From Syncephalis fuscata (Eukaryota > Zoopagomycota > Zoopagomycetes > Zoopagales > Piptocephalidaceae), in assembly GCA_025786725.1 (NCBI GenBank), contig JAHLTZ010000013.1, positions 604,899-668,898 on the forward strand: DNA of 64,000 bases. The letters run 5' to 3'. The notes under the pieces are model-generated. The model did no database searches. It had not been told where the DNA came from and saw only the letters and a list, made by a program, of their open reading frames with translations. Positions 7,247-61,961 of this stretch are shown in pieces. Position 1 is the stretch's first letter, and each line of letters begins with the position of its first letter. A program made the position numbers and the translations under genes.

Positions 7247-9817
7247 ATGAAATTCGAACGACAGCTCGAACTTAACGCAAATCCCGACTGGATTGATTAT
7301 TACATCAAGTAAGTATTATATTATAGTCCACTTGGACCAGTATTTAACCGGATATTAATATATGTATTTTATAGTTATGGTCGGCTAAAGAAATTGACCT
7401 ACAAGGAAGAAAAGGTCACTTCAGAACTACGATCGACAGGCAGTCTTGAACAAGGACTTGAATCGCCAGGATGTCCGTCTAAAACACTTATGACGTTCCA
7501 AGATGCGGTCGAACAAGAATTAGGCCATGTTGTATCGTTCTACCAAGCAACTGAATCATCACTTTATGAACGTCTCGACCAGTTGACCCGCCATTGTTTG
7601 GAAGAAAAGACCCGTCGTGAAATTGAAGCCGATGAATCGAATACTCCGTATATTCATCCACATTGGTGGGAAGGCGGCTGGACAGACGCACAAGTACCCA
7701 TGGCTGAAGCACGTAAAAATGATACTTTGAGTGCGCCTTCTCATACAATTAGCGGTATTACCGAAGAAGATATTCATTCTGACACTTATACCATTGCCTC
7801 GGCACGCCATATGGGCCAGTTACGTTCCGGCCTTTCATCACCCACCGTATCGATGCATGGTGGCGCTTCGGACGATGACGAACTAAAGGATGAAGCCCGT
7901 CAATTGTTTATGCAACTATCAGAATTGGAACGTTACGCGCAGCTTAATCGTTCTGGTTTTGATAAGATTCTAAAGAAACACGATAAAGTAATGGGATCAA
8001 CGCTACGTAAATGGTTTATGAATGAACGAGTCGACATGGCACGTCCATTCCAATCTGATACGCAAAGCACTTTGCGTCGTAAAATCCTTCGAGTGGAGGT
8101 TCTTCATGGATTTGCAGCTCGTATTGATAATTCACGTAAAAATGGTACATTGCTACGCCGTTTACTTCGTGATAAAATCACTTTTTCACGCAACACCGTA
8201 TGGCGTGATATGATTAATCGTGAGCGTATGATGTCAACGGTTGATGTTGACTCACCGGAAGATATTGAGGAAGCACTTGAACGGCCACACAATCGTATGC
8301 GGCTCTTTGGACGTGAGCTGCCATTTCCGCGCATTCCACGCAGCTTTATAATTGGTGTGCCATGTGTTATCATTTTTATTGTGTTGCTTTGCCTACCAAT
8401 CATGAATAACTCATCGGAACGCAATTGTCTGGCTCTTCTCGTATTGGCCTCTTTGTTCTGGGCCTTTGAAATTGTACCGCTCTTTGTTACTTCAATGCTA
8501 GTGCCATTCCTCGTTGTTATTTTAGGTGTTATGCGCGATGCTGAGGGCAATGCATTGCCAGCACCAAAAGCAACCAAGACTATTTTTGGCGCTATGTTTT
8601 CACCAGTAATTATGCTATTGCTGGGTGGCTTTGCTATTGCTGCTGCATTTAGCAAATATCATATTGCTCGTAAGATTGCTGCTGTTGTACTTTCCAAGGC
8701 GGGTACACGACCAGAAGTTGTACTTATTTCAAATATGGCAGTGGCCGCCTTCCTCAGTATGTGGATCAGTAATGTGGCTGCACCTGTTCTTTGCTTCTCG
8801 CTACTCGAACCGGTACTTCGTTCTATGCCGTCGACTTCAAATTACGGTAAAAGTCTTGTACTAGGTATTGCGCTTGCCTCAAATGTTGGCGGTATGATGT
8901 CGCCCATCAGTTCACCTCAGAACTTGATTTCGATTGATGTCCAAAAACCATCGCCATCCTGGGGCTCTTGGTTTGCCGTTGCTTTACCCGTGGCCATTAT
9001 ATCGCTATTTGGCGTCTGGGCCTTACTCATGATCACTTATAAGCCACACCGCGAGAAGGACACTGTTGTTACCATTCGTAAATACGATGAAGCATTTGGC
9101 TGGAAACAATATTTTATTATTGCCGTTACTCTATGCACCGTTGTTCTTTGGTGTATCGAGTCACAGCTTAAAAGTTATGTCGGTGATATGGGTGTTTTAG
9201 CTATTATTCCACTTGTTGTATTCTTCGGTTCAGGCCTACTTACCAAGGAGGATTTCAACAATTTCTTGTGGACAGTTATTATGCTTGCTATGGGTGGTAT
9301 TGCCCTGGGTCAAGCTGTTAACAGCTCGGGTCTATTGCACACCATTGCCACGGAGATTAGTGAGGCCGAAAAGGGCTTTTCACTTTGGGCTGTGACGGCA
9401 GTATTTGCTCTTTTAATGGCGGTTATTGCTACATTTATATCGCATACTGTGGCGGCACTTGTCATTCTACCTGTGGTCAATGTCGTCGGCCAGAGTATGC
9501 CAGAGCCACATGCTCGACTAATGGTTATGGTAAGTCTTTAAAGCAGTACAGTGACTATAGTCATTGCTATTTCTTCTAAACATTAACTAACAAATATTTA
9601 TTACTATTAATAGGTCTGCACAATGATTTGTTCCGGTGCTATGGGATTGCCAGTCTCAGGATTCCCCAATATGACGGCTATTATGCTTGAAGATTCAATG
9701 GGTCGTAATTATTTGAAAACGATCGATTTTATCAAAGTTGGTGTACCGGCCACGCTGTTCACTGCATTAGTGTCAGTATCGCTAGGTTACGGTATCTTGT
9801 TGGCTCTTGGATTCTAA
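7247..9817 (+). CDS. SPX-domain low-affinity phosphate transporter (PHO87/90/91 type, SLC13 superfamily)
   Basis: Exons 7247-7308, 7375-9529 and 9614-9817 give 806 residues. The start MKFERQLE followed by DWIDYYINYGRLKKLTY is a classical SPX N-terminus. The SPX domain ends about residue 215 with the helix NRSGFDKILKKHDK, whose lysines bind inositol pyrophosphates. The C-terminal about 480 residues form a hydrophobic Na+/sulfate-carboxylate (SLC13/ArsB) transporter fold with about a dozen membrane segments, including GIALASNVGGMMSPISSPQN and SGAMGLPVSGFPN, matching the two ion-binding hairpin signatures (SNIGG..TP.G..PN and the second, similar one). Fungal relatives import phosphate at the plasma membrane (Pho87/90) or export it from the vacuole (Pho91). 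The sequence does not decide which, although direct continuity of SPX and transporter is shared by all three. Both introns have GTAAGT donors. Confidence 0.93.
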
Positions 9818-10373
9818 AATGTTCATTTCTATAACGTTCTTTCCTTTCTCTTCTACTTACTATAACTTACTTCTTAGCGTTATATTTTTATATCGAATAA
9901 GAAGAATAAATACACAGTTATAACATAATGAGCTATCCATTTTTATTTAATATTTTAACATTGTAATAATTGAGTAATTAAAATATGGATATTTAAATAA
10001 TGTTCATTGTATCGCTTTACTAAAATGGTGAAGATGAGCACAATACACAAATAATGGCAATGGTTTGATAGAAAGCTAGAGTAATGTAATCATATTGCTT
10101 TTTGCTTGGACATCGACAATGAAACCATGTTTATTACTAAAGCTTGCATAGCTGAATAGGTGCAACTAAATTCAGACTTGCTGGTAATATAATGACGCCA
10201 TTGATTAAAAGACGAATAAATCGGGACATTGGCTAGAACTTGGTATACAAATAAGCTGATTGGCAAGTGCCAACTGATCTTGCTCTTGCCGAATATATAC
10301 CTAAATTATATCGGACTAGTAGCCTAGCCATATTACTAATGCTAGCTTCTTGAATGTACCGGTTATTCTATGT
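9818..10373. other. Intergenic region between two convergent genes
   Basis: About 550 bp of AT-rich DNA holding the presumed 3' ends of the phosphate transporter (plus strand) and of the microexon gene (minus strand). No further gene-like signal. Confidence 0.4.
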
Positions 10374-13300
10374 CTATAAAAATATAACACATGCTATAGA
10401 GTTAATGTATAAACTAGCAATACACAATGCCACTTACTAGCTATTAGTGTTAAGTCGTTGGTATACACGGTAAATATCAGTTAATTAGTACATAATTAGC
10501 TAAGACACAGAATCACTTACGACCTATCAATATTGATTTGTCAATACATATAATGAGCACACAGTTAATGCATGGCTGCTTGCAACAAAATGTCACTTAC
10601 AGCCTATTAGCATTGAGTTTTCGATACAAAAAATAACCATGCAGTTAGCGCATAGCCAATTGATATACGGTGCCACTTACGATCTATTAAGGTTGAGTCA
10701 TTTATAAACACAGTATAAATTATTTAATCAGTGGATAGTTAGCTACCATAAAATCCACGTACTCTCTATTAATGTTAGATTATTGGTAAGGACAATTTAT
10801 AGTATAGAATTAGGATATGGTCAATTAATATACAACATCACTTACGATCTATTAATGTTAAATCATTGGCAGACACAATGCATAGTATGTAATTAGCGCA
10901 TAATCACTTAGTGTAAAACACTACTTACTGCCTATTAATATTAAGTTGTTGATACACACAGTGGCCAATATATAATCAGTGTATAGCTAATTGATATACA
11001 ATGCCACTTACAGCCTATTAAGTTGTCAATGAATACATTAAAGATTATTTAATTAGTATATAATCAATCAATAAACAGTATCACTTACGAGCTATCAATA
11101 TTAATTTGTTGATACACACAATTCATAGCATGGAATTAGTGCATAGTTACTTAATATATAATGTTACATACCGACTATTGGTGTCAATTCGTTGACATAC
11201 ACAGTATATGATAAGCAGTCGATATATAGTCAATTAATAAACAGTATCACTTACTGCCTATTAATATTAATTTTTAATACACATAATGATTACATAATTA
11301 ATTTATGGCTGAGTGCCATAAAATACCGCTTACAGTCTATTAGCATTGAATTGTCAATACACGCAATAAACATTCAATTAGTGCATAGTCAATTGATATA
11401 AAATATTACTTACCATCTATTAATATTAAATTGTTGACAAACAGTAAATGGTGTGCAATTAATGTATAGCCAATTATTATATAATACCACTTACCAACTA
11501 TTGATATTAAATTATTGATAGACACAATACATAGTATGTAATTAGTGCATAATCCCGTAATATACAATACCACTTACTGTCTATTAATATTAAGTTTTTG
11601 GTATACACGGTAGACAGTCTATAATCAGCGTATAAATAATTGACATACAATATCACTTACAGCCTATTGAGTTGTCAGTAAATACAGTATAGATTATTTA
11701 ATTAGTAGTTAGCTAATTGCCATAAAATATCACTTACTCTCTATTAGTGTTAATTTGTTGATACGCACAATCCACAACATATAATTAGCGCATAGCCAAT
11801 TAATGCACGGTGCCACTTACTCTCTATCAATGTTTTAACATTGATAAACACAATACATAACATGTGATCAGTGAAAAGTTATTAATATACAACACTACTT
11901 ACTGTCTATTAATATTATTTGATTGATAAACGTAATGCATAGCATTTAATCAGTGTATATCTAATTGACGCAATATCACTTACCTTCTATTACGTTATTA
12001 ATACATGAAATAATCATGTAATTAGTACAAGCCAATTGATATACAATACCACTTACCCGCTATTGATATTAAGTTGTTAGCAGAAATAATACATAGTATG
12101 TAATTGGTTCATAGTCAATAATATAAAATACTACTTACGCTCTATTATTTATAATATATTAATACATAATTAATAATATAAATGCTACTTACTGCCTATT
12201 ATTATTAATTTGTTGGTATACACAATAAACAGTATTAATCAGTGCATATCCAATTAATATACGATGCCACTTACAAACTATTAATATTGCATTGTTGATA
12301 CAAATAGCCAATAGTATATAATTAGCGCATATTCAATTAGTATATGATGCCACTTACAAACTATCAATATCAAATTGTTGATGCAAATAGCACATAGTAT
12401 ATAATTAGTGTAAAATTACTTATTACATGATTACTTACCGCCTGTTAATATTAAGTTGTTAATACACACAGTAAGCATATAATTAGTGCATAGCCAATTA
12501 CCATACAGTACTACCTACAGTCTATTAAGTTGCCAATAACATATTATAGATTATGTGATTAGTAGATAGCTTATCAATGCACGGCGCCACTTACATTCTT
12601 TTAAGACCAGGTTTTGACCCACATGAAAGATATCATTTAATTAATACGCAGCCAATTAATATACAGTACCACTTACTCTCTATTAGTATTAGATTGTGGA
12701 CGCATACAATAATAATATAATTAGTAAATACTCAATTGCTATACAATACCGCTTACCATCTATAGCATTAGGTTGTTAATACGTACAATATTCAATAAAT
12801 GATTAGTGCATAGCTGGTACATATAAAATATCACTTACAGTCTATTGTCAATAAACATATTATAGGTTGTGTAATTAGTAGATAACCGATTAATCCACGG
12901 TGCCACTTACAAGCTATAAGCATTAAATTGTTGACCCACACAATAGATATCATTTAATTAATACCCAGTCGATTGATATACAGTACCACTTACCAGCTAT
13001 TGATATTCAATCATCGATACACACAATGCATAGAATGTAATTAGTGCATAACCATCTAATATACAATACCACTTACTGCCTATTGATATTGATTCGTTGA
13101 TAAATACAGTGGACAGTATATAATTAGTGTATAACTAACTGACATACAATACCACCTACATTCTATTAATTTATTGATAAACACCACAAATGTCACGTAA
13201 TTAGTGTATAATCACTAAATATATCATGCCACCTACTTTCTATTAACATTAAATTGTTGATACACGCAGCGCATATCATGTAGTTAGCTTATATTTAATT

Positions 13301-13723
13301 AATATACAATAGCACTTACCTTCTATTGATTTTAATTTGGCAAATAAAATATATTTAATTAAATTGCTAACTGGCCCGTAATACTACTTGCCTTTTATTA
13401 ATGTTAGTTTGACATAGTAGTATTACAAATACAGTGTTTAATCTACTGTTTATAACAAACTTACCATCTGTTTACATTTTTCATTGTGTTTATTATGTGT
13501 ATGGAGTTGTATAATAAGTAATGTAGCAACAATCCCATGATCACAACTTACTTGCTAATATCACCATTGGTGGTTAAATATAACAACAGTAAGCATATCA
13601 ATTTGCACATTATTGTAATTACAACATACCACGACGGGCTAGAGCCGGTCTAGCTTCCACAATGGCTGTACTGGCTACAAAAGCTATAGTGAGGGTGCAG
13701 GCGACTATAATAAAAAGCTTCAT
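10374..13723 (-). CDS. Secreted cysteine-rich peptide encoded by about 40 single-codon (3-nt) microexons
   Basis: Exon 1 (13723-13630) starts ATCACCATGA and encodes MKLFIIVACTLTIAFVASTA, then VEARPALARR: a signal peptide, a short pro-segment and a dibasic (Kex2-like) site. It ends in phase 1 at a GTATGT donor. Below it, AG|NNN|GT recurs every about 80 bp. The 3-nt exons start (low coordinate) at 13552, 13465, 13392, 13320, 13237, 13160, 13077, 12994, 12911, 12839, 12757, 12677, 12595, 12519, 12439, 12358, 12275, 12193, 12139, 12057, 11984, 11903, 11821, 11738, 11661, 11578, 11495, 11414, 11334, 11255, 11172, 11089, 11012, 10929, 10846, 10763, 10681, 10601, 10521 and 10438. Every intron splits a codon after its first base. 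Joined, they give 40 sense codons with six cysteines spaced C-x7-C-x2-C-x11-C-x3-C-x4-C, after an acidic start. Unit 13392 is degenerate (GC donor, AA before the triplet) and may be skipped, costing one Glu. The last exon is unsettled: acceptor at 10394 (stop 10374-10376, taken here) or at 10374 (stop after three more residues). Function unknown; a secreted disulfide-rich peptide is inferred. Splicing is not proven. Confidence 0.75.
10441..13629 (-). repeat. Tandem array of about 40 similar introns (about 80-bp unit)
   Basis: Each unit, read on the minus strand, begins with a donor (GTAAGT in most; GTAGGT at 12513, 13154 and 13231; GTACGT at 10757; GTATGT at 11166; GTAAGC at 11328 and 12751; GCAAGT at 13386). 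It continues with GTATTGTATAT-like sequence, a conserved GCACTAATTAC-like block (a CTAAT branch-point candidate about 40 nt before the end), TATTGTGTGTATCAACAA and ends TTAATATTAATAG. Lengths between triplets are 51-84 nt, most often 80. Units near 13.4-13.6 kb are the most diverged. The units are clearly related, so the array grew by tandem duplication of an intron together with one triplet, or by repeated insertion of one intron type. It has no spacer/repeat logic of a CRISPR array. Confidence 0.9.
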
Positions 13724-46289: not shown

Positions 46290-46745
46290 CTAACTATGGC
46301 AATATATGCTACCAAACATATACCGTTATCTTTCTCTTTCTCATCCTCTTTCTCATCCTCTTTCTCTTCATCCTTTTTTCACTAACCTTCCATTACTTAC
46401 CGTACTAGCAACAGTGTATGCTGGATATATGCTACCAAACATACACTGTTATCATTCTCTTTCTTTTCCCACCTTCTTTCCCATCCTTTTCACTAAACCT
46501 TCTATTACTTATCGTACTAGCAACAGTGTATGATGGATATATGCTACCAAGCATACACTGTTCTCATCCTCTTTCACTTTACTCCTTCTTCCCTATCCTT
46601 TTCACCAACCTTCCATTACTTACCGTACTAGCAACAGTGTATGCTGGATATATGCTACCAAGCATATACTGTTCCTTTCTCATCCTCTCCTCATCTTTTC
46701 CTCTATACCTTCCATTGCTCATCGTGCTAGCAATAGTGTGTTTAG
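46290..46745 (+). repeat. About four 110-bp tandem units with hairpin, copy A
   Basis: Each unit has CCTTCCATTACTTACCGTAC, then a hairpin (AACAGTGTATGC ... GCATACACTGTT arms around about 16 nt), then a CT-rich stretch. The counterpart array is at 59580-60005. The last unit is diverged (TAGCAATAGTGTGTTTAGC). Confidence 0.85.
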
Positions 46746-47012: not shown

Positions 47013-48336
47013 CGATTAGTGTGTTAGCGGCCGGCTACCAAACAATATAACAATTAATGTTATATTGATGACTTTAGATTTAGTTCACTAACTTACTAAC
47101 CTGTATTGATAATTACAGCTTTATATCATAAATAAAAAGCACCAAATTGTTTTAGTGTGCTAGCGGCCGGCTACACAACATTGTAACATACTAACTTTAT
47201 ATGTATTATTTTAGATTTTAGATGCCGGATACTAACACTAACATTTATTGCTTATTATAGATTTTAGATAGCCGGACACCAACACTAGTACCAGCACTGG
47301 CATCAGCAGCAGCACCAGCACCAACATCAACACCAGCACCAGCACCAACACCGACATCAGCACCAGCATCAGCATCGGCATCAACACCAACACCAACACC
47401 AGCATCAGCACCAGCACCAACACCAGCACCAGTACCAGTACCAACACCAGTACCAGCACCAGTACCAGCACCAACACCGGCATCAGCACCAACATCAACA
47501 CCAGCACCAGCACCAGCACCAACACCGACATCAGCACCAGCACCAACACCAACACCGGCATCAACACCAGCATCAGCACCAGCACCAACACCAGCACCAG
47601 CACCAGTACCAACACCGACATCAGCACCAGCACCAGCATCGGCATCAACACCAACACCAACACCAGCATCAGCACCAGCACCAACACCAGCACCAGCACC
47701 AGTACCAACACCAGTACCAGCACCAGTACCAGCACCAACACCGGCATCAGCACCAGCACCAACACCAACACCAGCACCAGTACCAACACCGACATCAGCA
47801 CCAGCACCAGCATCGGCATCAACACCAACACCAACACCAGCATCAGCACCAGCACCAACACCAGCACCAGCACCAATACCAACACCAGTACCAGCACCAG
47901 TACCAGCACCGGCATCAGCACCAACACCAGCATCAGCACCAACATCAGCACCAACACCGGCATCAGCACCAGCACCAGCACCAGCATCAGCACCAGCATC
48001 AGCACCAGCACCAACATCGACACCAGCACCAGTACCAACACCGACATCAGCACCAGCACCAGTACCAATATCAACATCGGCACCGGCACCGGCACCAACA
48101 TTAGTAACAACATCAACATTGGCATCAACACTAACACTAACATTGTATTTATTATTTTAGATCCGTAGGTAGCCGGCCATGGACACCTAGCGTATGTATT
48201 ATTATTATACATAGCCGGCCGCTAGCACACTAAAACCAAATATGCAATATTAATTCAAGACAATTGTCTACTAACGTATTAACATTGTATTTATTATTTT
48301 AGAATTGTAGGTAGCCGGCCGCTAACACACTAATCG
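47013..48336. repeat. Nested inverted repeats enclosing a hexanucleotide array, copy A
   Basis: The outer arms 47013-47038 and 48311-48336 are a perfect 26-bp inverted repeat; the inner arms 47150-47173 and 48212-48235 are a perfect 24-bp inverted repeat. Both pairs share the core TAGCGGCCGGCTA but differ in flanks, so arms pair within their own set. Between them lies a (CCAGCA/CCAACA/CCAGTA)n array at about 47275-48130. Copy B has the same arrangement (outer arms 60276-60301 and 61936-61961). Confidence 0.9.
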
Positions 48337-50345: not shown

Positions 50346-50792
50346 TGAAGAATAGACTAAATAAGTGAATAATTGACTAAAGAGTAGAATAATAGACTAA
50401 ATGGTTGAATAATGGTTAAAATGAACACAGCCACAACAAAATGAACTTTAACAATGAATAACTCGATAAATATTAGCACAAATGACATGAGACTAGGTGA
50501 CAATGAAACAGAATGAACAGGAGAATAAGAAACAACAATAAAACAGACAACGATTTTTTTATTTTTTTGAAAATATTTTTGACAATTATTTGACAAAGAT
50601 TTAGGGCTAATGAAGATAGGGCTTGACAAAATAGGGCTAAAATAAGAAAAATAAGACAAAAATGAAAAATGAAGGAAAATGAACAAGAAGTTACAGGACA
50701 ACTATACGAGCGATAGCGAGTTAGAAAACAACAAGAACAACGACAATAGAACAACAACAACAACAACAACAAGAGAAGAGAGACACAAAAAA

Positions 50793-53700
50793 GGGTTCTA
50801 CCACTACGGGACCTAGTATTGGAGTTCGAAAAACGGTCACGCTAATGGCTTCATATTAGGAAGGTGCCACTCAAGCAGTAGTGCTGTGGCAATGTGCTGT
50901 GCAGATTGAGGCCAATATGAGTAAAATACAACGAGTAAAGTGACCATTACATAGATAAATACGTAAAAACAACGCTGGGGAAGCAAGTGATGCGTAAACT
51001 ACGTAAAACAAACAAACAAAATACGGTAGCTGAACTACGAGTAATGACCTGCAAGAACCATACTGACTGGTCATTAGCTGAAATTACTGCAATGACTGCA
51101 ATGACTGCACTAGAATAGGCCAATTGACCCCCAGTAGCCAGTATACCATACAACAATCAACACACTATCATAATAAACAAATTATAGCAATAAATAAACA
51201 AATTTATTTGTATACTTATTATTTTTACCAATATTTGACCAATATTGCTATGATATGCATATACAATTCTGAATAAAAACAATAAATATTTACACATCGC
51301 ATTTTATTGATCCATTATAACCAGAATTGTCGTCTGAGTACGCAGAACCAATCGGATTTGCTGTATATTTTTTCGTTAATTTACTATTAATTTTTTAGTG
51401 TGTCCATTGTGACTGCGTAATATGGTAATTAGCGAACTGAGTGTAAGGAATGGCCAGTTTCAACTATAAAGCTAGCGTAAAATGGACAGCGCCAATCGAT
51501 AGAGCGTGGCCATTATACTGTATAACAATATACAACAACACGCTATAAAATAAAACACATATGGTATACAACGTCAAATTTACAGTGATAAGTTACAGTG
51601 TACCACTATGGCCATTTCAAGTGCCCTCACAAAAGGGTTCTACCACTACGGGACCTAGTATTGGAGTTCGAAAAACGGTCACGCTAATGGCTTCATATTA
51701 GGAAGGTGCCACTCAAGCAGTAGTGCTGTGGCAATGTGCTGTGCAGATTGAGGCCAATATGAGTAAAATACAACGAGTAAAGTGACCATTACATAGATAA
51801 ATACGTAAAAACAACGCTGGGGAAGCAAGTGATGCGTAAACTACGTAAAACAACAAAAAAACAAAATACGGTAGCTGAACTACGAGTAATGACCTGCAAG
51901 AACCATACTGACTGGTCATTAGCTGAAATTACTGCAATGACTGCAATGACTGCACTAGAATAGGCCGAATTGACCCCCAGTAGCCAGTATACCATACACC
52001 AATCAACACACTATCATAATAAACAAATTATAGCAATAAATAAACAAATTTATTTGTATACTTATTATTTTTACCAATATTTGACCAATATTGCTATGAT
52101 ATGCATATACAATTCTGAATAAAAACAATAAATATTTAGACATTTTATTTTATTGGCTTATTATAACCAGAATTGTCGTCTGAGTACGCAGAACCAATCG
52201 GATTTGCTGTATATTTTTTCGTTAATTTACTATTAATTTTTTAGTGTGTCCAGTTGTGACTGCGTAATATGGTAATTAGCGAACTGAGTGTAAGGAATGG
52301 CCAGTTTCAACTATAAAGCTAGCGTAAAATGGACAGCGCCAATCGATAGAGCGTGGCCATTATACTGTATAACAATATACAACAACACGCTATAAAATAA
52401 AACACATATGGTATACAACGTCAAATTTACAGTGATAAGTTACAGTGTACCACTATGGCCATTTCAAGTGCCCTCACAAAAGGGTTCTACCACTACGGGA
52501 CCTAGTATTGGAGTTCGAAAAACGGTCACGCTAATGGCTTCATATTAGGAAGGTGCCACTCAAGCAGTAGTGCTGTGGCAATGTGCTGTGCAGATTGAGG
52601 CCAATATGAGTAAAATACAACGAGTAAAGTGACCATTACATAGATAAATACGTAAAAACAACGCTGGGGAAGCAAGTGATGCGTAAACTACGTAAAACAA
52701 AACAAAATACGCTAGCTGAACTACGAGTAATGACCTGCAAGAACCATACTGACTGGTCATTAGCTGAAATTACTGCAATGACTGCAATGACTGCACTAGA
52801 ATAGGCCGAATTGACCCCCAGTAGCCAGTATACCATACACCAATCAACACACTATCATAATAAACAAATTATAGCAATAAATAAACAAATTTATTTGTAT
52901 ACTTATTATTTTTACCAATATTTGACCAATATTGCTATGATATGCATATACAATTCTGAATAAAAACAATAAATATTTACACATCGCATTTTATTGATCC
53001 ATTATAACCAGAATTGTCGTCTGAGTACGCAGAACCAATCGGATTTGCTGTATATTTTTTCGTTAATTTACTATTAATTTTTTAGTGTGTCCAATTGTGA
53101 CTGCGTAATATGGTAATTAGCGAACTGAGTGTAAGGAATGGCCAGTTTCAACTATAAAGCTAGCGTAAAATGGACAGCGCCAATCGATAGAGCGTGGCCA
53201 TTATACTGTATAACAATATACAACAACACGCTATAAAATAAAACACATATGGTATACAACGTCAAATTTACAGTGATAAGTTACAGTGTACCACTATGGC
53301 CATTTCAAGTGCCCTCACAAAAGGGTTCTACCACTACGGGACCTAGTATTGGAGTTCGAAAAACGGTCACGCTAATGGCTTCATATTAGGAAGGTGCCAC
53401 TCAAGCAGTAGTGCTGTGGCAATGTGCTGTGCAGATTGAGGCCAATATGAGTAAAATACAACGAGTAAAGTGACCATTACATAGATAAATACGTAAAAAC
53501 AACGCTGGGGAAGCAAGTGATGCGTAAACTACGTAAAAACAAACAAAATACGGTAGCTGAACTACGAGTAATGACCTGCAAGAACCATACTGACTGGTCA
53601 TTAGCTGAAATTACTGCAATGACTGCAATGACTGCACTAGAATAGGCCAATTGACCCCCAGTAGCCAGTATACCATACACCAATCAACACACTATCATAA

Positions 53701-54160
53701 TAAACAAATTATAGCAATAAATAAACAAATTTATTTGTATACTTATTATTTTTACCAATATTTGACCAATATTGCTATGATATGCATATACAATTCTGAA
53801 TAAAAACAATAAATATTTAACATCGCATTTTATTGTCATTATAACCAGAATTGTCGTCTGAGTACGCAGAACCAATCGGATTTGCTGTATATTTTTTCGT
53901 TAATTTACTATTAATTTTTTAGTGTGTCCATTGTGACTGCGTAATATGGTAATTAGCGAACTGAGTGTAAGGAATGGCCAGTTTCAACTATAAAGCTAGC
54001 GTAAAATGGACAGCGCCAATCGATAGAGCGTGGCCATTATACTGTATAACAATATACAACAACACGCTATAAAATAAAACACATATGGTATACAACGTCA
54101 AATTTACAGTGATAAGTTACAGTGTACCACTATGGCCATTTCAAGTGCCCTCACAAAAGG
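50793..54160 (+). repeat. Four-copy tandem satellite, about 842 bp per unit
   Basis: Units start at the GGGTTCTACCACTACGGGAC boundary at 50793, 51635, 52482 and 53323 and end at 54158; lengths 842, 847, 841 and about 836. The copies differ by only a handful of substitutions and small indels. The unit junction is AAAAGGG; after the last copy the sequence switches to GGGTTTAACATT. Confidence 0.95.
50871..51074 (-). CDS. Small conserved frame in satellite unit 1 (67 aa), doubtful gene
   Basis: In each of the four units a minus-strand ATG-to-TGA frame of 66-68 codons persists (50871-51074, 51713-51919, 52560-52760, 53401-53601). The only length variation inside it, in an A/C-rich stretch, is 19, 22 or 25 nt, always a multiple of three, while indels elsewhere in the unit are not. 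The product would be hydrophobic with six to seven cysteines and no family I know. This may be chance: a second overlapping frame is open as well, and the copies are very similar overall. Confidence 0.2.
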   Translation of the reverse strand: MTSQYGSCRSLLVVQLPYFVCLFYVVYASLASPALFLRIYLCNGHFTRCILLILASICTAHCHSTTA

Positions 54161-54199
54161 GTTTAACATTAAGGTACGTTTTGTTATAAAAAGCCCTAA

Positions 54200-54670
54200 A
54201 ACATAAACACGCGCTTATTTAATAATAGATCTAGAAGCAAAACAGCAATGGTGTTGCATAGCTCTTACGCATTATACAATAAATGGCATACAATATAATG
54301 AATGTACAGCGTAATAAGTGGATTAAGTGAGGTGTGTTGCCGCATATAATAAACAAAATGTGTCTAGTGTATCATATGATGCTATATAGTAGTGTTTCAA
54401 TAAATTATAGTGATATATGTAAATAAAATATAGATGTGTACTGGATAATAAATCCACGATAATAAGTATTTTGACAGCTGGTACCACTCACCACCAGTTC
54501 TATATCCAATAGAACGAATGGCAGGTTTTAATGGGACAAATATTATTAAATTAGTCATTTTATTATAAATCGGATTGTAATTAAATGGCTTGATGATTGA
54601 TGTTATTCATCACCTAGCATTATATTCAATGAAATAAGTATTATTAAATGTAATGATTTGATTACCAAAT
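54200..54670. repeat. Half copy of dispersed inverted-repeat family
   Basis: 54330-54380 (gtgtgttgccgcatataata, then gtgtctagtgtatcat) matches 40880-40935 and 58795-58830. 54455-54660 contains two diverged sub-blocks ending TAGTCATTT and GATTTGATTA. It lies just upstream of the unknown gene. Confidence 0.6.
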
Positions 54671-59579: not shown

Positions 59580-60005
59580 GCAATATATGCTACCAAACAT
59601 ATACCGTTATCTTCCTCTTTCTCTTCATCCTTTTTTTCACCAACCTTCCATTACTTACCGTACTAGCAACAGTGTATGCTGGATATATGCTACCAAGCAT
59701 ACACTGTTATCATCCTCTTTCTCTTCCCTCCTTCTTCCCCATCCTTTTCACCAACCTTCCATTACTTACCGTACTAGCAACAGTGTATGCTGGCTATATG
59801 CTACCAAGCATACACTATTCTCATCCTCTTTCACTTTACTCCTTCTTCCCTATCCTTTTCACCAATCTTCCATTACTTACCGTACTAGCAACAGTGTATG
59901 CTGGATATATGCTACCAAGCATATACTGTTCCTTTCTCACCCTCTCCTCACCCTCTCCTCATCATTACCTCTATACCTTCCATTGCTCACCGTGCTAGCA
60001 ATAGT
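59580..60005 (+). repeat. About four 110-bp tandem units with hairpin, copy B
   Basis: Same structure as 46290-46745: pyrimidine-rich segments alternating with the 12-bp-arm hairpin. Differences between A and B are mostly in the CT-rich parts. Confidence 0.85.
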
Positions 60006-60275: not shown

Positions 60276-61961
60276 CGATTAGTGTGTTAGCGGCCGGCTA
60301 CCAAGCAATATAACAACCAATGTTATATTGATGACTTTAAATTTAGATTACTAACTTACTAACCTGTATTGATAATTACAGCTTTATATCATAAATAAAA
60401 ATCACCAAATTGTTTTAGTGTGCTAGCGGCCGGCTACACAACATTGCAACATACTAACTTTATACATATATTGTTTTAAATTTTAGATACCGGATACTAA
60501 CACTAACATTTATTGATTATTATAGATTTTAGATAGCCGGACACCAGTACCAACACCGGCATCAACACCAGCACCAGTACCAACACCGGCATTAGCACCA
60601 ACACCAGTACCAACACCGGTATCAGCGCCAACATCGACACCAGCACCAACATCAACACCAGTACCAGTACCAGTACCAGCACCGGCATCAGCACCAACAC
60701 CGCATCGACATCAACACCAACACCAACACCAGCATCAGCACCAACACCAGTACCAGCATCAGCACCAGTACCAGCATCAGCACCAGCACCAACATCGACA
60801 CCAGCACCGGCATCAGCACCGACACCGACATCAGCACCAACACCGACATCAGCACCAGCACCAGTACCAACACCGACATCAGCACCAGCACCAGTACCAG
60901 CACCGGCATCAGCACCGACATCAGCACCAGCACCAGTACCAGCACCGGCATCAGCATCGGCATCAACACCAACATCAGCACCAGCACCAGCACCGGCATC
61001 AACACCAACACCAACACCAGCATCAGCACCAGCACCAGCACCGGCATTAACACCAACACCAGCGCCAACACCAACATCGACACCAGCGCCAACACCAGCA
61101 CCAGCATCGGCATTAACACCAGCACCAGCACCAGCACCAACACCGACATCAGCACCAGCACCAGTACCAACACCGGCATCAGCACCAGCACCAGTACCAG
61201 CACCGGCATCAGCACCAACACCAGCATCGGCATCAACACCAACATCAGCACCAGCACCAGCACCGGCATCAACACCAACACCAACACCAGCATCAGCACC
61301 AGCACCAGCACCGGCACCGGCATTAACACCAACACCAGTATCAACACCAGCATCAGCACCAACACCAACATGGACACCAGCGCCAACACCAGCACCAGCA
61401 TCGGCATTAACACCAGCACCAGCACCAGCACCAACACCGACATCAGCACCAGCACCAGCACCAACACCGACATCAGCACCAGCACCAGTACCAACACCGG
61501 CATCAGCACCAGCACCAGTACCAGCACCGGCATCAGCACCGACATCAGCACCAGCACCAGTACCAGCACCGGCATCAGCACCAACACCAGCATCGGCATC
61601 AACACCAACATCAGCACCAGCACCGGCATCAACACCAACACCAACACCAGCATCAGCACCAGCACCGGCATTAACACCAACACCAGCACCAGTATCAACA
61701 TCGGCACCGGCACCGGCACCAACATTAGTAACAACATCAACATTGGCATCAACACTAAACACTAACATTGTATTTATTATTTTAGAATCGTAGGTAGCCA
61801 GCCATGGACACCTAGCGTAAGTATTATTATTATACATAGCCGGCCGCTAGCACACTAAAACCAAATATGCAATATCAATTCAAGACAATTGTCTACTAAC
61901 GTATTAACATTGTATTTATTGTTTTAGAATTGTAGGTAGCCGGCCGCTAACACACTAATCG
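60276..61961. repeat. Nested inverted repeats enclosing a hexanucleotide array, copy B
   Basis: Counterpart of 47013-48336; the array of CCAGCA-type hexamers spans about 60540-61760, some 350 bp longer than in copy A. Long open frames on both strands in the array are a by-product of its 6-bp period. Confidence 0.9.

Follow-up and report, generated by a model that had tools for sequence, protein, structure and literature searches.

In the fungus Syncephalis fuscata we describe a gene whose mature product would be spelled by 39 consecutive exons of one codon each. The gene lies on the minus strand of the 64-kb stretch of DNA analyzed here (the window; positions 604899-668898 of contig C35, in a surveyed genome of 28.95 Mb and 299 contigs). 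With a probability of about 90%, we consider it a member of a large S. fuscata family in which arrays of one-codon exons are spliced to encode small secreted peptides, mostly rich in cysteine (Cys). This reading draws support from the lack of stops and the surplus of Cys in the phase that the first exon predicts, from agreement of arrays parsed without that exon, from divergence between paralogs that is mainly amino-acid-changing with many Cys kept and, above all, from the sister of another array, which carries its mature stretch uninterrupted. S. fuscata belongs to the Piptocephalidaceae (Zoopagomycota, Zoopagales), and Syncephalis species are mycoparasites. Hereafter W denotes the window gene, L-numbers genomic family loci, and P-numbers public proteins, some of them also placed as loci.

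The window gene extends from 13723 to 10363 and comprises a 94-nt exon 1, then 39 exons each exactly 3 nt long, and finally a short terminal exon (Table 1). The first-pass annotation had proposed about 40 consecutive single-codon exons below an exon 1 of 94 nt ending in phase 1; the length and phase of exon 1 are as proposed, and our chain parser found 39 microexons, from 13554 for the first to 10440 for the last, preceded by introns of 51-142 nt (median 79). Exon 1 reads by eye as a typical signal peptide followed by a dibasic RR, and its donor is GTATGTTG. Joined in phase 1, the mature part after RR is ANEEKCTAYYEKYCVFCKPEDKKSYIDDCIARCNQNRCPNIE and then a stop; its NIE end is a reading by eye, and an alternative acceptor ending at 10368, also seen by eye, would give K before the same TAA. 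The AATAACC of the last exon is found at the homologous place in L040 and L050. The joined triplets contain no stop and six Cys, with exactly the spacing claimed beforehand (C-x7-C-x2-C-x11-C-x3-C-x4-C). The chance expectation of about one Cys was too low: 20000 order shuffles of the 39 triplets give a mean of 2.46, with P = 0.0068 for at least six Cys, 0.022 for no stop and 0.00095 for both together. On its own the window gene is suggestive; the genome-wide family is decisive.

The exact pattern AATAG-Nk-GTAAGT occurs 3183 times in the genome for k = 3, against 28 for the reversed-pattern control, whereas the counts are 59 (control 58) for k = 2, 54 (50) for k = 4 and 38 (19) for k = 6; the 3-nt spacing is therefore more than 100-fold over control, while spacings of 2 and 4 hardly differ from it. 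A 30-mer of the unit, with the triplet left free and up to 3 mismatches, matches 872 + 955 genomic places (control 0). From these numbers we infer on the order of a hundred arrays in the genome, assuming 20-40 units per array. Using exon 1 as a protein query we obtained 150 scored genomic matches, the weakest with E = 1.4e-4; these are the scored part of 291 candidates, with near copies and single-exon members counted in. A near-identical second copy of the window gene (C37:14008-14103; L010, L039) lies on a 24-kb contig, with exon 1 identical at 94/94 positions, introns 98% identical and 2 base differences in the aligned triplets, and is perhaps the other haplotype. Distant signal-peptide-like exons were also seen on the opposite strand at L050 (+ strand, near 1285; without ATG, and with four array-intron matches on that strand) and L047 (+ strand, near 982), perhaps decayed family members.

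Searched with a profile, a set of 5.8 billion proteins yielded 14 matches at E <= 1, every one named for S. fuscata. Seven of these public gene models (P0123, P0124, P0126, P0129, P0130, P0132 and P0134) have the family signal peptide in common, and on inspection by eye seem to end in array or intron sequence that was read through or wrongly joined; P0134 is apparently a frame-shifted relative of P0128. P0125 resembles L042, by eye, at its start only.

Splice signals in the arrays are strong and their spacing is tight. Of the 334 acceptor-to-donor distances between 0 and 40 nt in W and L040-L058 (both strands, near copies counted), 310 equal 3 nt exactly. Over 414 units (again with near copies), the three triplet bases carry 0.09, 0.20 and 0.02 bits, against 1.3-1.7 bits at the adjoining splice-site positions not fixed by the search pattern. 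Among the exact AATAG-NNN-GXAAGT sites (n = 364, 21 sequences), 359 have T and 5 have C at donor position +2, and none has A or G; by this criterion the array introns are of spliceosomal GT-AG or GC-AG type. Their consensus is GTAAGTggTATTGTATATTAATTaAcTATgcACTAATTAtATatTATgcAcTgTGTgTATCAAtaAcTTAATATTAATAG (78 introns of 80 nt, from 328 examined), and the ACTAATTA block, to judge by its conservation, is a possible branch region. Short introns with strong splice sites fit intron definition. Triplets starting with TA are nearly absent (1 seen and 14.2 expected among 495 triplets; 0/5000 shuffles as low), perhaps through AG-TA creating a competing donor (GTA) across the acceptor, with codon bias as an alternative. 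A similar element (...AAGCTTGTGAGCCCCCGCTGC...; AAGAGCTTGTGAGC in L039) lies inside array introns of L039, L049 and L055, and stretches that the parser read through in L008, L037 and L044 resemble it.

We inspected 15 introns longer than 110 nt. Six hold AG-NNN-GCAAGT or GCGAGT (L042 no. 12, L047 no. 2, L056 no. 1 and 7, L035 no. 6 and L052 no. 14), and the remaining ones longer exons, an insert or no clear unit. GC donors were permitted across all genes, not case by case. With them L042 reads CKCQDEDGNCTSC, a GC-AG microexon supplying one D that closes the sole gap seen earlier; L047 reads DLEECLRC (compare GLEECWAC in L051) and L056 gives C-x2-C-x3-C like L051, two apparent likenesses.

Microexon chains were parsed downstream of exon 1 in the fetched loci. 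In 20 rows with 471 codons, the phase set by exon 1 gives 0 stops and 50 Cys; 1000 within-gene shuffles of triplet order give a mean of 17.8 stops (minimum 8) and 23.2 Cys (maximum 37), and phase 2 contains 52 stops and 17 Cys. The rows include paralogs such as L043-L046, and L023, which is the L052 locus, is counted twice, repeating the start of L052. Near-duplicates were removed by a string test, and rows were cut at the first exon not divisible by three. Excluded by hand were L002, L009, L010, L013, L039, L040, L057 and L058; genes with fewer than six exons before the cut (L050, L055, L011, L021, L026, L031 and L034) were dropped, and the donor-less loci L024, L032, L033 and L053 never entered. 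Of three further arrays, L001 and L006 were parsed without exon 1, and L007 is the C37 copy of the window gene; they are likewise stop-free with Cys in phase 1, with stops in phase 2 for all three and in phase 0 for L001 only. L003 and L008 have a long misparsed or inserted piece containing stops. In L052, 77 successive exons of one codon spell an amphipathic stretch free of stops (VEQKLQSFATQLQQEIDSFRPSCSEDIQKLYDQADKLHDELL...). Its mean helical moment is 0.396, compared to 0.219 when shuffled (P = 0.001), and P is 0.0035 for no stop (2000 shuffles); the parsed array extends seven more units, the fourth of which is a stop, and was truncated ahead of this stop for the test. Finally, the base composition of the triplets, shifted to phase 1, resembles that of the codon positions of three contiguous family members (117 codons).

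These contiguous members, with an intron-free mature part after the signal peptide, include L053/L024, L032/L033, P0122 (C278), P0121 and others, and one of them provides what is, from sequence comparison, the strongest test of the one-codon-per-exon reading. P0122 reads ...RGPIPPFGACKCRDDDGYCTSCAPAYEG. L042 CKCQDEDGNCTSC and P0122 CKCRDDDGYCTSC can be compared over 13 codons with a DNA identity of 33/39; the matching L042 codons are spread over 14 exons, about 551 to 1605 nt after the ATG (about 1 kb), whereas those of P0122 are uninterrupted. The local alignment of the two mature parts scores 69, compared to 62 for the best of 40000 order shuffles; the likeness was first spotted by eye and tested afterwards. 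The 5' flanks of the two genes align over 536 bp with a score of 321 (next best array 57), the 3' untranslated regions (UTRs) score 56 of 92 (next best 34), and a tree of the 5' flank plus exon 1 pairs L042 with P0122 at a support of 100/100. In a 28-row tree, the contiguous L024 falls inside a 100/100 clade with nine array rows, some of them near copies, and groups with L018 and L031 at 98/96; rows without a contiguous exon were labelled array, including L031, which hardly parses but has 7 array-intron matches. A 15-row tree requires three switches between the array and contiguous states. We favour a change from array to contiguous, because it is difficult to picture about thirty introns entering each gene, all in phase 1, whereas one recombination with a spliced complementary DNA (cDNA) clears all introns; P0122 would then be a natural record of exact splicing.

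Between paralogs, codons diverge several-fold faster than the introns around them, while many Cys persist. L043 and L045 are identical at 89% of intron positions, 98% of splice sites, 98% of exon 1 and 94% of the 3' region, but at only 50/62/52% of the three triplet bases; for L043 and L047 the values are 83% in introns and 34/38/38% in triplets. In 532 aligned unit pairs sorted into bins, triplets diverge 2.3 to 13.7 times as much as the flanks, and about 5 times as much in the 3-12% bins. Over 14 paralog pairs, which like the other pairwise divergence counts are non-independent, 185 codons differ nonsynonymously and 18 synonymously, and 87 are identical. Cys is kept in both members at 33/56 Cys-bearing positions (27/50 without the near-identical pair W/L039), and 9 of the 33 common positions use different codons. 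Five pairs drawn from L043, L045, L046, L047 and L051 were compared in exon 1, with identities of 93-100%.

Triplet base 2, mostly silent in phase 1, differs between L043 and L045 at 11/29 positions, against 11% in introns, although introns may be constrained, some units may be misaligned and the pairs are non-independent. Whole triplets also differ between L045 and L046 inside near-identical flanks (GCA/ACC with 0/140 flanking differences, TCA/ACG with 1/140). Point mutation with amino-acid selection may thus not be the whole story of triplet divergence. Flanks of differing triplets are more divergent across the whole +-40 nt, and the trace expected of short-tract exchange, a sharp rise of flank mismatches beside differing triplets, was not seen in the compared pairs. 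Gaps between paralogs often comprise whole units. In W, L042 and L052, introns resemble those of other arrays about as much as those of their own (means 0.63-0.69), and neighbours are no more alike than the rest, whereas those of L043 average 0.82 for neighbours and 0.72 at a distance of at least 12, and L043 has repeated codons (ACC CAA); neighbouring introns in L043, L047 and L056 are up to 95-97% identical, and those two to five apart up to 100%.

Outside the window gene, one codon per exon is a rule with exceptions. A parse check of 20 loci (W and L039-L058 minus L053; the W model there has a zero-length exon) found 12 without a stop or an exon length indivisible by three. In the others, stops occur in the joined models of L039, L040, L044, L048 and L055, and odd-length exons in L040, L045 (2 nt), L050 (16 nt), L052 (2 nt) and L055; L039, and probably L044, carries an insert, and L045 has one 2-nt unit. 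Such arrays may be damaged genes, or may reflect errors of the parser or of the assembly. The 2-nt unit of L045 (GG, about 1070 nt after the ATG, shifting the frame) adjoins a G run, which makes an assembly error possible. Larger in-frame exons of 6, 9, 12, 15, 27 and probably 33 nt also occur in the family, the 33-nt exon of L042 being read by eye in agreement with the public model P0125. L041, L057 and L058 parse, the last-exon acceptor of L041 not being recognised by eye, and the beginning of the partial locus L034 is unclear. When the parser was constrained to exon lengths divisible by three, its models of W, L040, L044 and L050 were poor and contained stops, and only those of L045 and L052 were used further. 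With these exceptions, the annotated picture of a secreted Cys-rich peptide encoded by one-codon exons, with all introns in phase 1, extends to the family.

Several observations weigh against our interpretation. The eight loci that did not parse cleanly (L039, L040, L044, L045, L048, L050, L052 and L055) are among them, as are the weak splice scores of microexons 1 and 2 of the window gene. Stops are scarce in phase 0 as well: there are none, with 2 Cys, in the 471 codons, and in the somewhat different set of 495 triplets 2 stop triplets against 10.0 expected, which goes with the scarcity of TA-initial triplets. None of the 14 public family proteins reads by eye as a parsed array peptide. No contiguous copy of the window mature peptide was found in the genome, and this peptide has no significant similarity to the contiguous members (P = 0.21). 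When 16 array peptides were compared to five contiguous ones, P was below 0.01 for only L042 (0/2000) and L051, and the latter match (to P0121, P = 0.0095) is not significant after 16 tests. In addition, exon 1 does not single out L042 as the closest relative of P0122 (L042 77/93, L043 79/93, L047 and L050 78/93).

The mechanism we propose is as follows. Exon 1 would supply the signal peptide and break after the first base of a codon, and the mature peptide would come from a tandem array whose unit is a codon-sized exon plus an intron of about 79 nt. A near-perfect donor (GTAAGT, rarely GCAAGT), the ACTAATTA block and a TAATAG acceptor would let intron definition recognise each intron, and the message would be assembled by removing every intron singly; once one intron is gone, the next donor would stand 3 nt downstream of the junction. 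The peptides are probably processed by Kex2 at RR/KR. Arrays would gain and lose whole units, probably by unequal exchange between similar introns, so that single residues are added or removed with the frame intact, and codons would diversify, probably under strong selection, as introns and signal peptide are kept. Some members would have turned single-exon, most simply by recombination with their own spliced cDNA, leaving contiguous genes as a natural record of joined codon exons. The likely role is that of diversified secreted peptides for interaction with the host fungus. More tentatively, the array may be a device for evolving, and perhaps varying, peptides by residue, a possibility to which we give somewhat less than even weight: recombination would insert, delete or swap residues, splicing may skip them, and triplets may be replaced as whole units by a focused process, such as short-tract exchange among thousands of units or targeted mutation. 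We raise the possibility of whole-unit replacement because base 2 exceeds intron divergence and because whole triplets differ inside near-identical flanks.

Could an array instead be one long non-coding intron, with exon 1 joined to the last exon (or an unproductive transcript) and the triplets untranslated? Exons of 3 nt are difficult for exon-definition splicing, and the array structure is not reproduced by the public gene models examined. A direct jump in the window gene, however, leaves a signal peptide and a few residues, and non-coding triplets would account neither for the lack of stops and the Cys excess in the exon 1 phase, nor for the L042 triplets being spelled like a contiguous sister, nor for changes that are mainly nonsynonymous with many Cys kept; we regard this explanation as very improbable. 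We find it harder still to credit that functional single-exon genes were bombarded by introns and that the arrays are their decaying copies, left as pseudogenes. Single-exon members do share the signal peptide and, where examined, have a similar 5' flank and 3' UTR, and some arrays are damaged or unclear. Splice sites are nevertheless retained at hundreds of units, as the donor +2 counts show, 471 codons are stop-free with selection-like codon change, and exon 1 is close to identical in the five pairs given above.

Other alternatives concern how the two gene forms arose. The coding reading could be the same with a different origin, mobile introns (introners) having inserted between the codons of an ancestral contiguous exon. 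Dispersed insertion predicts introns as alike between as within arrays, as found in W, L042 and L052, but about 30 insertions per gene, all in phase 1 and one per codon, would be needed, and a profile search of the rest of the 64-kb window found no member of the intron family outside the array at E < 0.05 (best 0.08). The near-identical neighbouring introns of L043, L047 and L056, the repeated codons of L043 and the nesting of the single-exon L024/L053 in a well supported array clade also argue against it, and we consider this origin unlikely. We are equally doubtful that contiguous members arose by recombination at exon 1 and the 3' UTR that swapped mature regions, in which case contiguity would be uninformative on array splicing. 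Conserved exon 1 and 3' UTR sequences are possible exchange points, and L053 lacks a clear mature match to the array peptides tested; however, the mature DNA of L042 and P0122 is homologous in both states, so that at some point an interrupted form must have been converted into an uninterrupted one, or the reverse. The one-codon-exon array with occasional conversion to a single exon remains our preferred reading.

The full joined peptide of the window gene had no protein match at E <= 10 and, searched by sequence, none in PDB. For seven family proteins Pfam gave nothing past the curated cut-off: five had no match at E <= 1, P0127 had one weak match, and L052 had twenty sub-threshold matches, several coiled-coil or helical by name. 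Rfam gave no match on the window, and the promoter scan was of bacterial type and hence uninformative for a fungus. Elsewhere in the window, a unit of about 841 bp occurs four times in tandem at positions 50786-54230; in the stretches compared, the copies share 67-100% identity with the reference copy. On both strands, two long arrays of CACCAG-like 6-bp repeats (47277-48097 and 60542-61721) are open in several frames. Copies of a 112-bp repeat (46376-46673 and 59634-59930) precede each of them, an arrangement that looks like a segmental duplication.

Table 1. Window features (positions in the window). Microexons are listed with their triplet and the residue read in phase 1.
Feature	Position	Strand	Details
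SPX/SLC13 transporter reading frame	7415-9541		100% identical to a Syncephalis fuscata protein; next two matches from other Syncephalis
Exon 1	13630..13723	-	94 nt, ends in phase 1; MKLFIIVACTLTIAFVASTAIVEARPALARR plus first base (G) of next codon
Array, 39 single-codon exons and 38 introns	10438..13554	-	intron consensus GTAAGTggTATTGTATATTAATT..ACTAATTA..TTAATATTAATAG
Microexon 1	13552..13554	-	CAA, A; weak splice score, 2.6
Microexon 2	13465..13467	-	ATG, N; weakest splice score, -1.7
Microexon 3	13320..13322	-	AAG, E; preceded by 142-nt intron
Microexon 4	13237..13239	-	AAA, E
Microexon 5	13160..13162	-	AAT, K
Microexon 6	13077..13079	-	GCA, C
Microexon 7	12994..12996	-	CTG, T
Microexon 8	12911..12913	-	CTT, A
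Microexon 9	12839..12841	-	ACT, Y
Microexon 10	12757..12759	-	ATG, Y
Microexon 11	12677..12679	-	AGA, E
Microexon 12	12595..12597	-	AAT, K
Microexon 13	12519..12521	-	ACT, Y
Microexon 14	12439..12441	-	GCG, C
Microexon 15	12358..12360	-	TTT, V
Microexon 16	12275..12277	-	TTT, F
Microexon 17	12193..12195	-	GCA, C
Microexon 18	12139..12141	-	AGC, K
Microexon 19	12057..12059	-	CGG, P
Microexon 20	11984..11986	-	AAG, E
Microexon 21	11903..11905	-	ACA, D
Microexon 22	11821..11823	-	AGA, K
Microexon 23	11738..11740	-	AGA, K
Microexon 24	11661..11663	-	GCT, S; found by later parser, missed by first
Microexon 25	11578..11580	-	ACA, Y
Microexon 26	11495..11497	-	TTG, I
Microexon 27	11414..11416	-	ATG, D
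Microexon 28	11334..11336	-	ACT, D
Microexon 29	11255..11257	-	GCA, C
Microexon 30	11172..11174	-	TCG, I
Microexon 31	11089..11091	-	CTC, A
Microexon 32	11012..11014	-	GCT, R
Microexon 33	10929..10931	-	GCA, C
Microexon 34	10846..10848	-	ATC, N
Microexon 35	10763..10765	-	AGA, Q
Microexon 36	10681..10683	-	ATC, N
Microexon 37	10601..10603	-	GCT, R
Microexon 38	10521..10523	-	GTC, C
Microexon 39	10438..10440	-	CTA, P
Last coding exon	10363..10373	-	(A)AC ATA GAA TAA, N I E stop; read by eye
3' UTR	10130..10362	-	by eye like UTRs of other array and single-exon members; extent guessed
AATAAA in 3' UTR	10130-10135	-

Known ultra-short exons occur singly, and we know of no precedent for a protein encoded by dozens of successive one-codon exons. 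Our search of the PubMed Central literature on fungal microexons, single-codon exons and introners, with most subscription papers and bioRxiv preprints outside it, found no such gene described, and nothing joining Syncephalis with microexons or introns per gene. If transcripts confirm the reading, the arrays would set a new limit for intron definition and splicing fidelity, the 77-residue stretch of L052 requiring some 78 exact joins. They would be genes whose introns outlast, in conservation, the codons they separate, and a natural system for protein evolution residue by residue, stretching ideas of both splicing capacity and protein evolution. This would also explain why annotation misses such peptides, since ordinary gene callers and similarity searches cannot read the arrays.

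Among the closest parallels are genes for secreted or putative effector proteins. Schistosome micro-exon genes (MEGs) are described as encoding secreted parasite proteins mostly by very small symmetrical exons that can be skipped in frame, with a ratio of nonsynonymous to synonymous substitution rates (dN/dS) higher in the mature part than in the signal peptide (PMC4350168). The S. fuscata arrays similarly have most of their coding sequence in very small exons divisible by three, with few odd-length exceptions; going by these descriptions of MEGs, they are set apart by single-codon exons, a tandem unit with introns of one family, contiguous sisters and their occurrence in a fungus. Aphid bicycle genes are reported as fast-evolving putative effectors with many small exons, about 17 on average and more than 100 microexons in one gene (megacycle), nearly all internal exons beginning at codon position 2 (PMC9168663). 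Array exons likewise start at codon position 2. Bicycle genes are defined by paired CYC motifs and occurrence in aphids, and their exons are longer than one codon and not known to form a tandem repeat of one intron. By that description the S. fuscata genes differ in their one-codon exons and in belonging to a fungus rather than an insect.

In genes of the conotoxin and snake-venom type, exons evolve faster than introns, the introns and the signal peptide being conserved and the Cys-rich mature part hypervariable; there the mature part lies in one or a few ordinary exons, unlike in the arrays. Introners are families of similar introns present in many copies, and the array introns are alike in this respect, but within the window they are confined to the array, in phase 1 and one codon apart. 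Exons as short as these can be spliced: the plant genes APC11 and VPS55 are reported to have 1-nt exons, that of VPS55 with conserved GTRAGT donors, and intronless APC11 copies are ascribed to intron loss mediated by reverse transcriptase (PMC8831610), while mouse Ncam has a 3-nt exon (PMC8042270). These cases show that exons of 1-3 nt are spliceable, with one such exon seen in each, whereas in the S. fuscata arrays about ten to more than eighty ultra-short exons in a row would form the mature protein.

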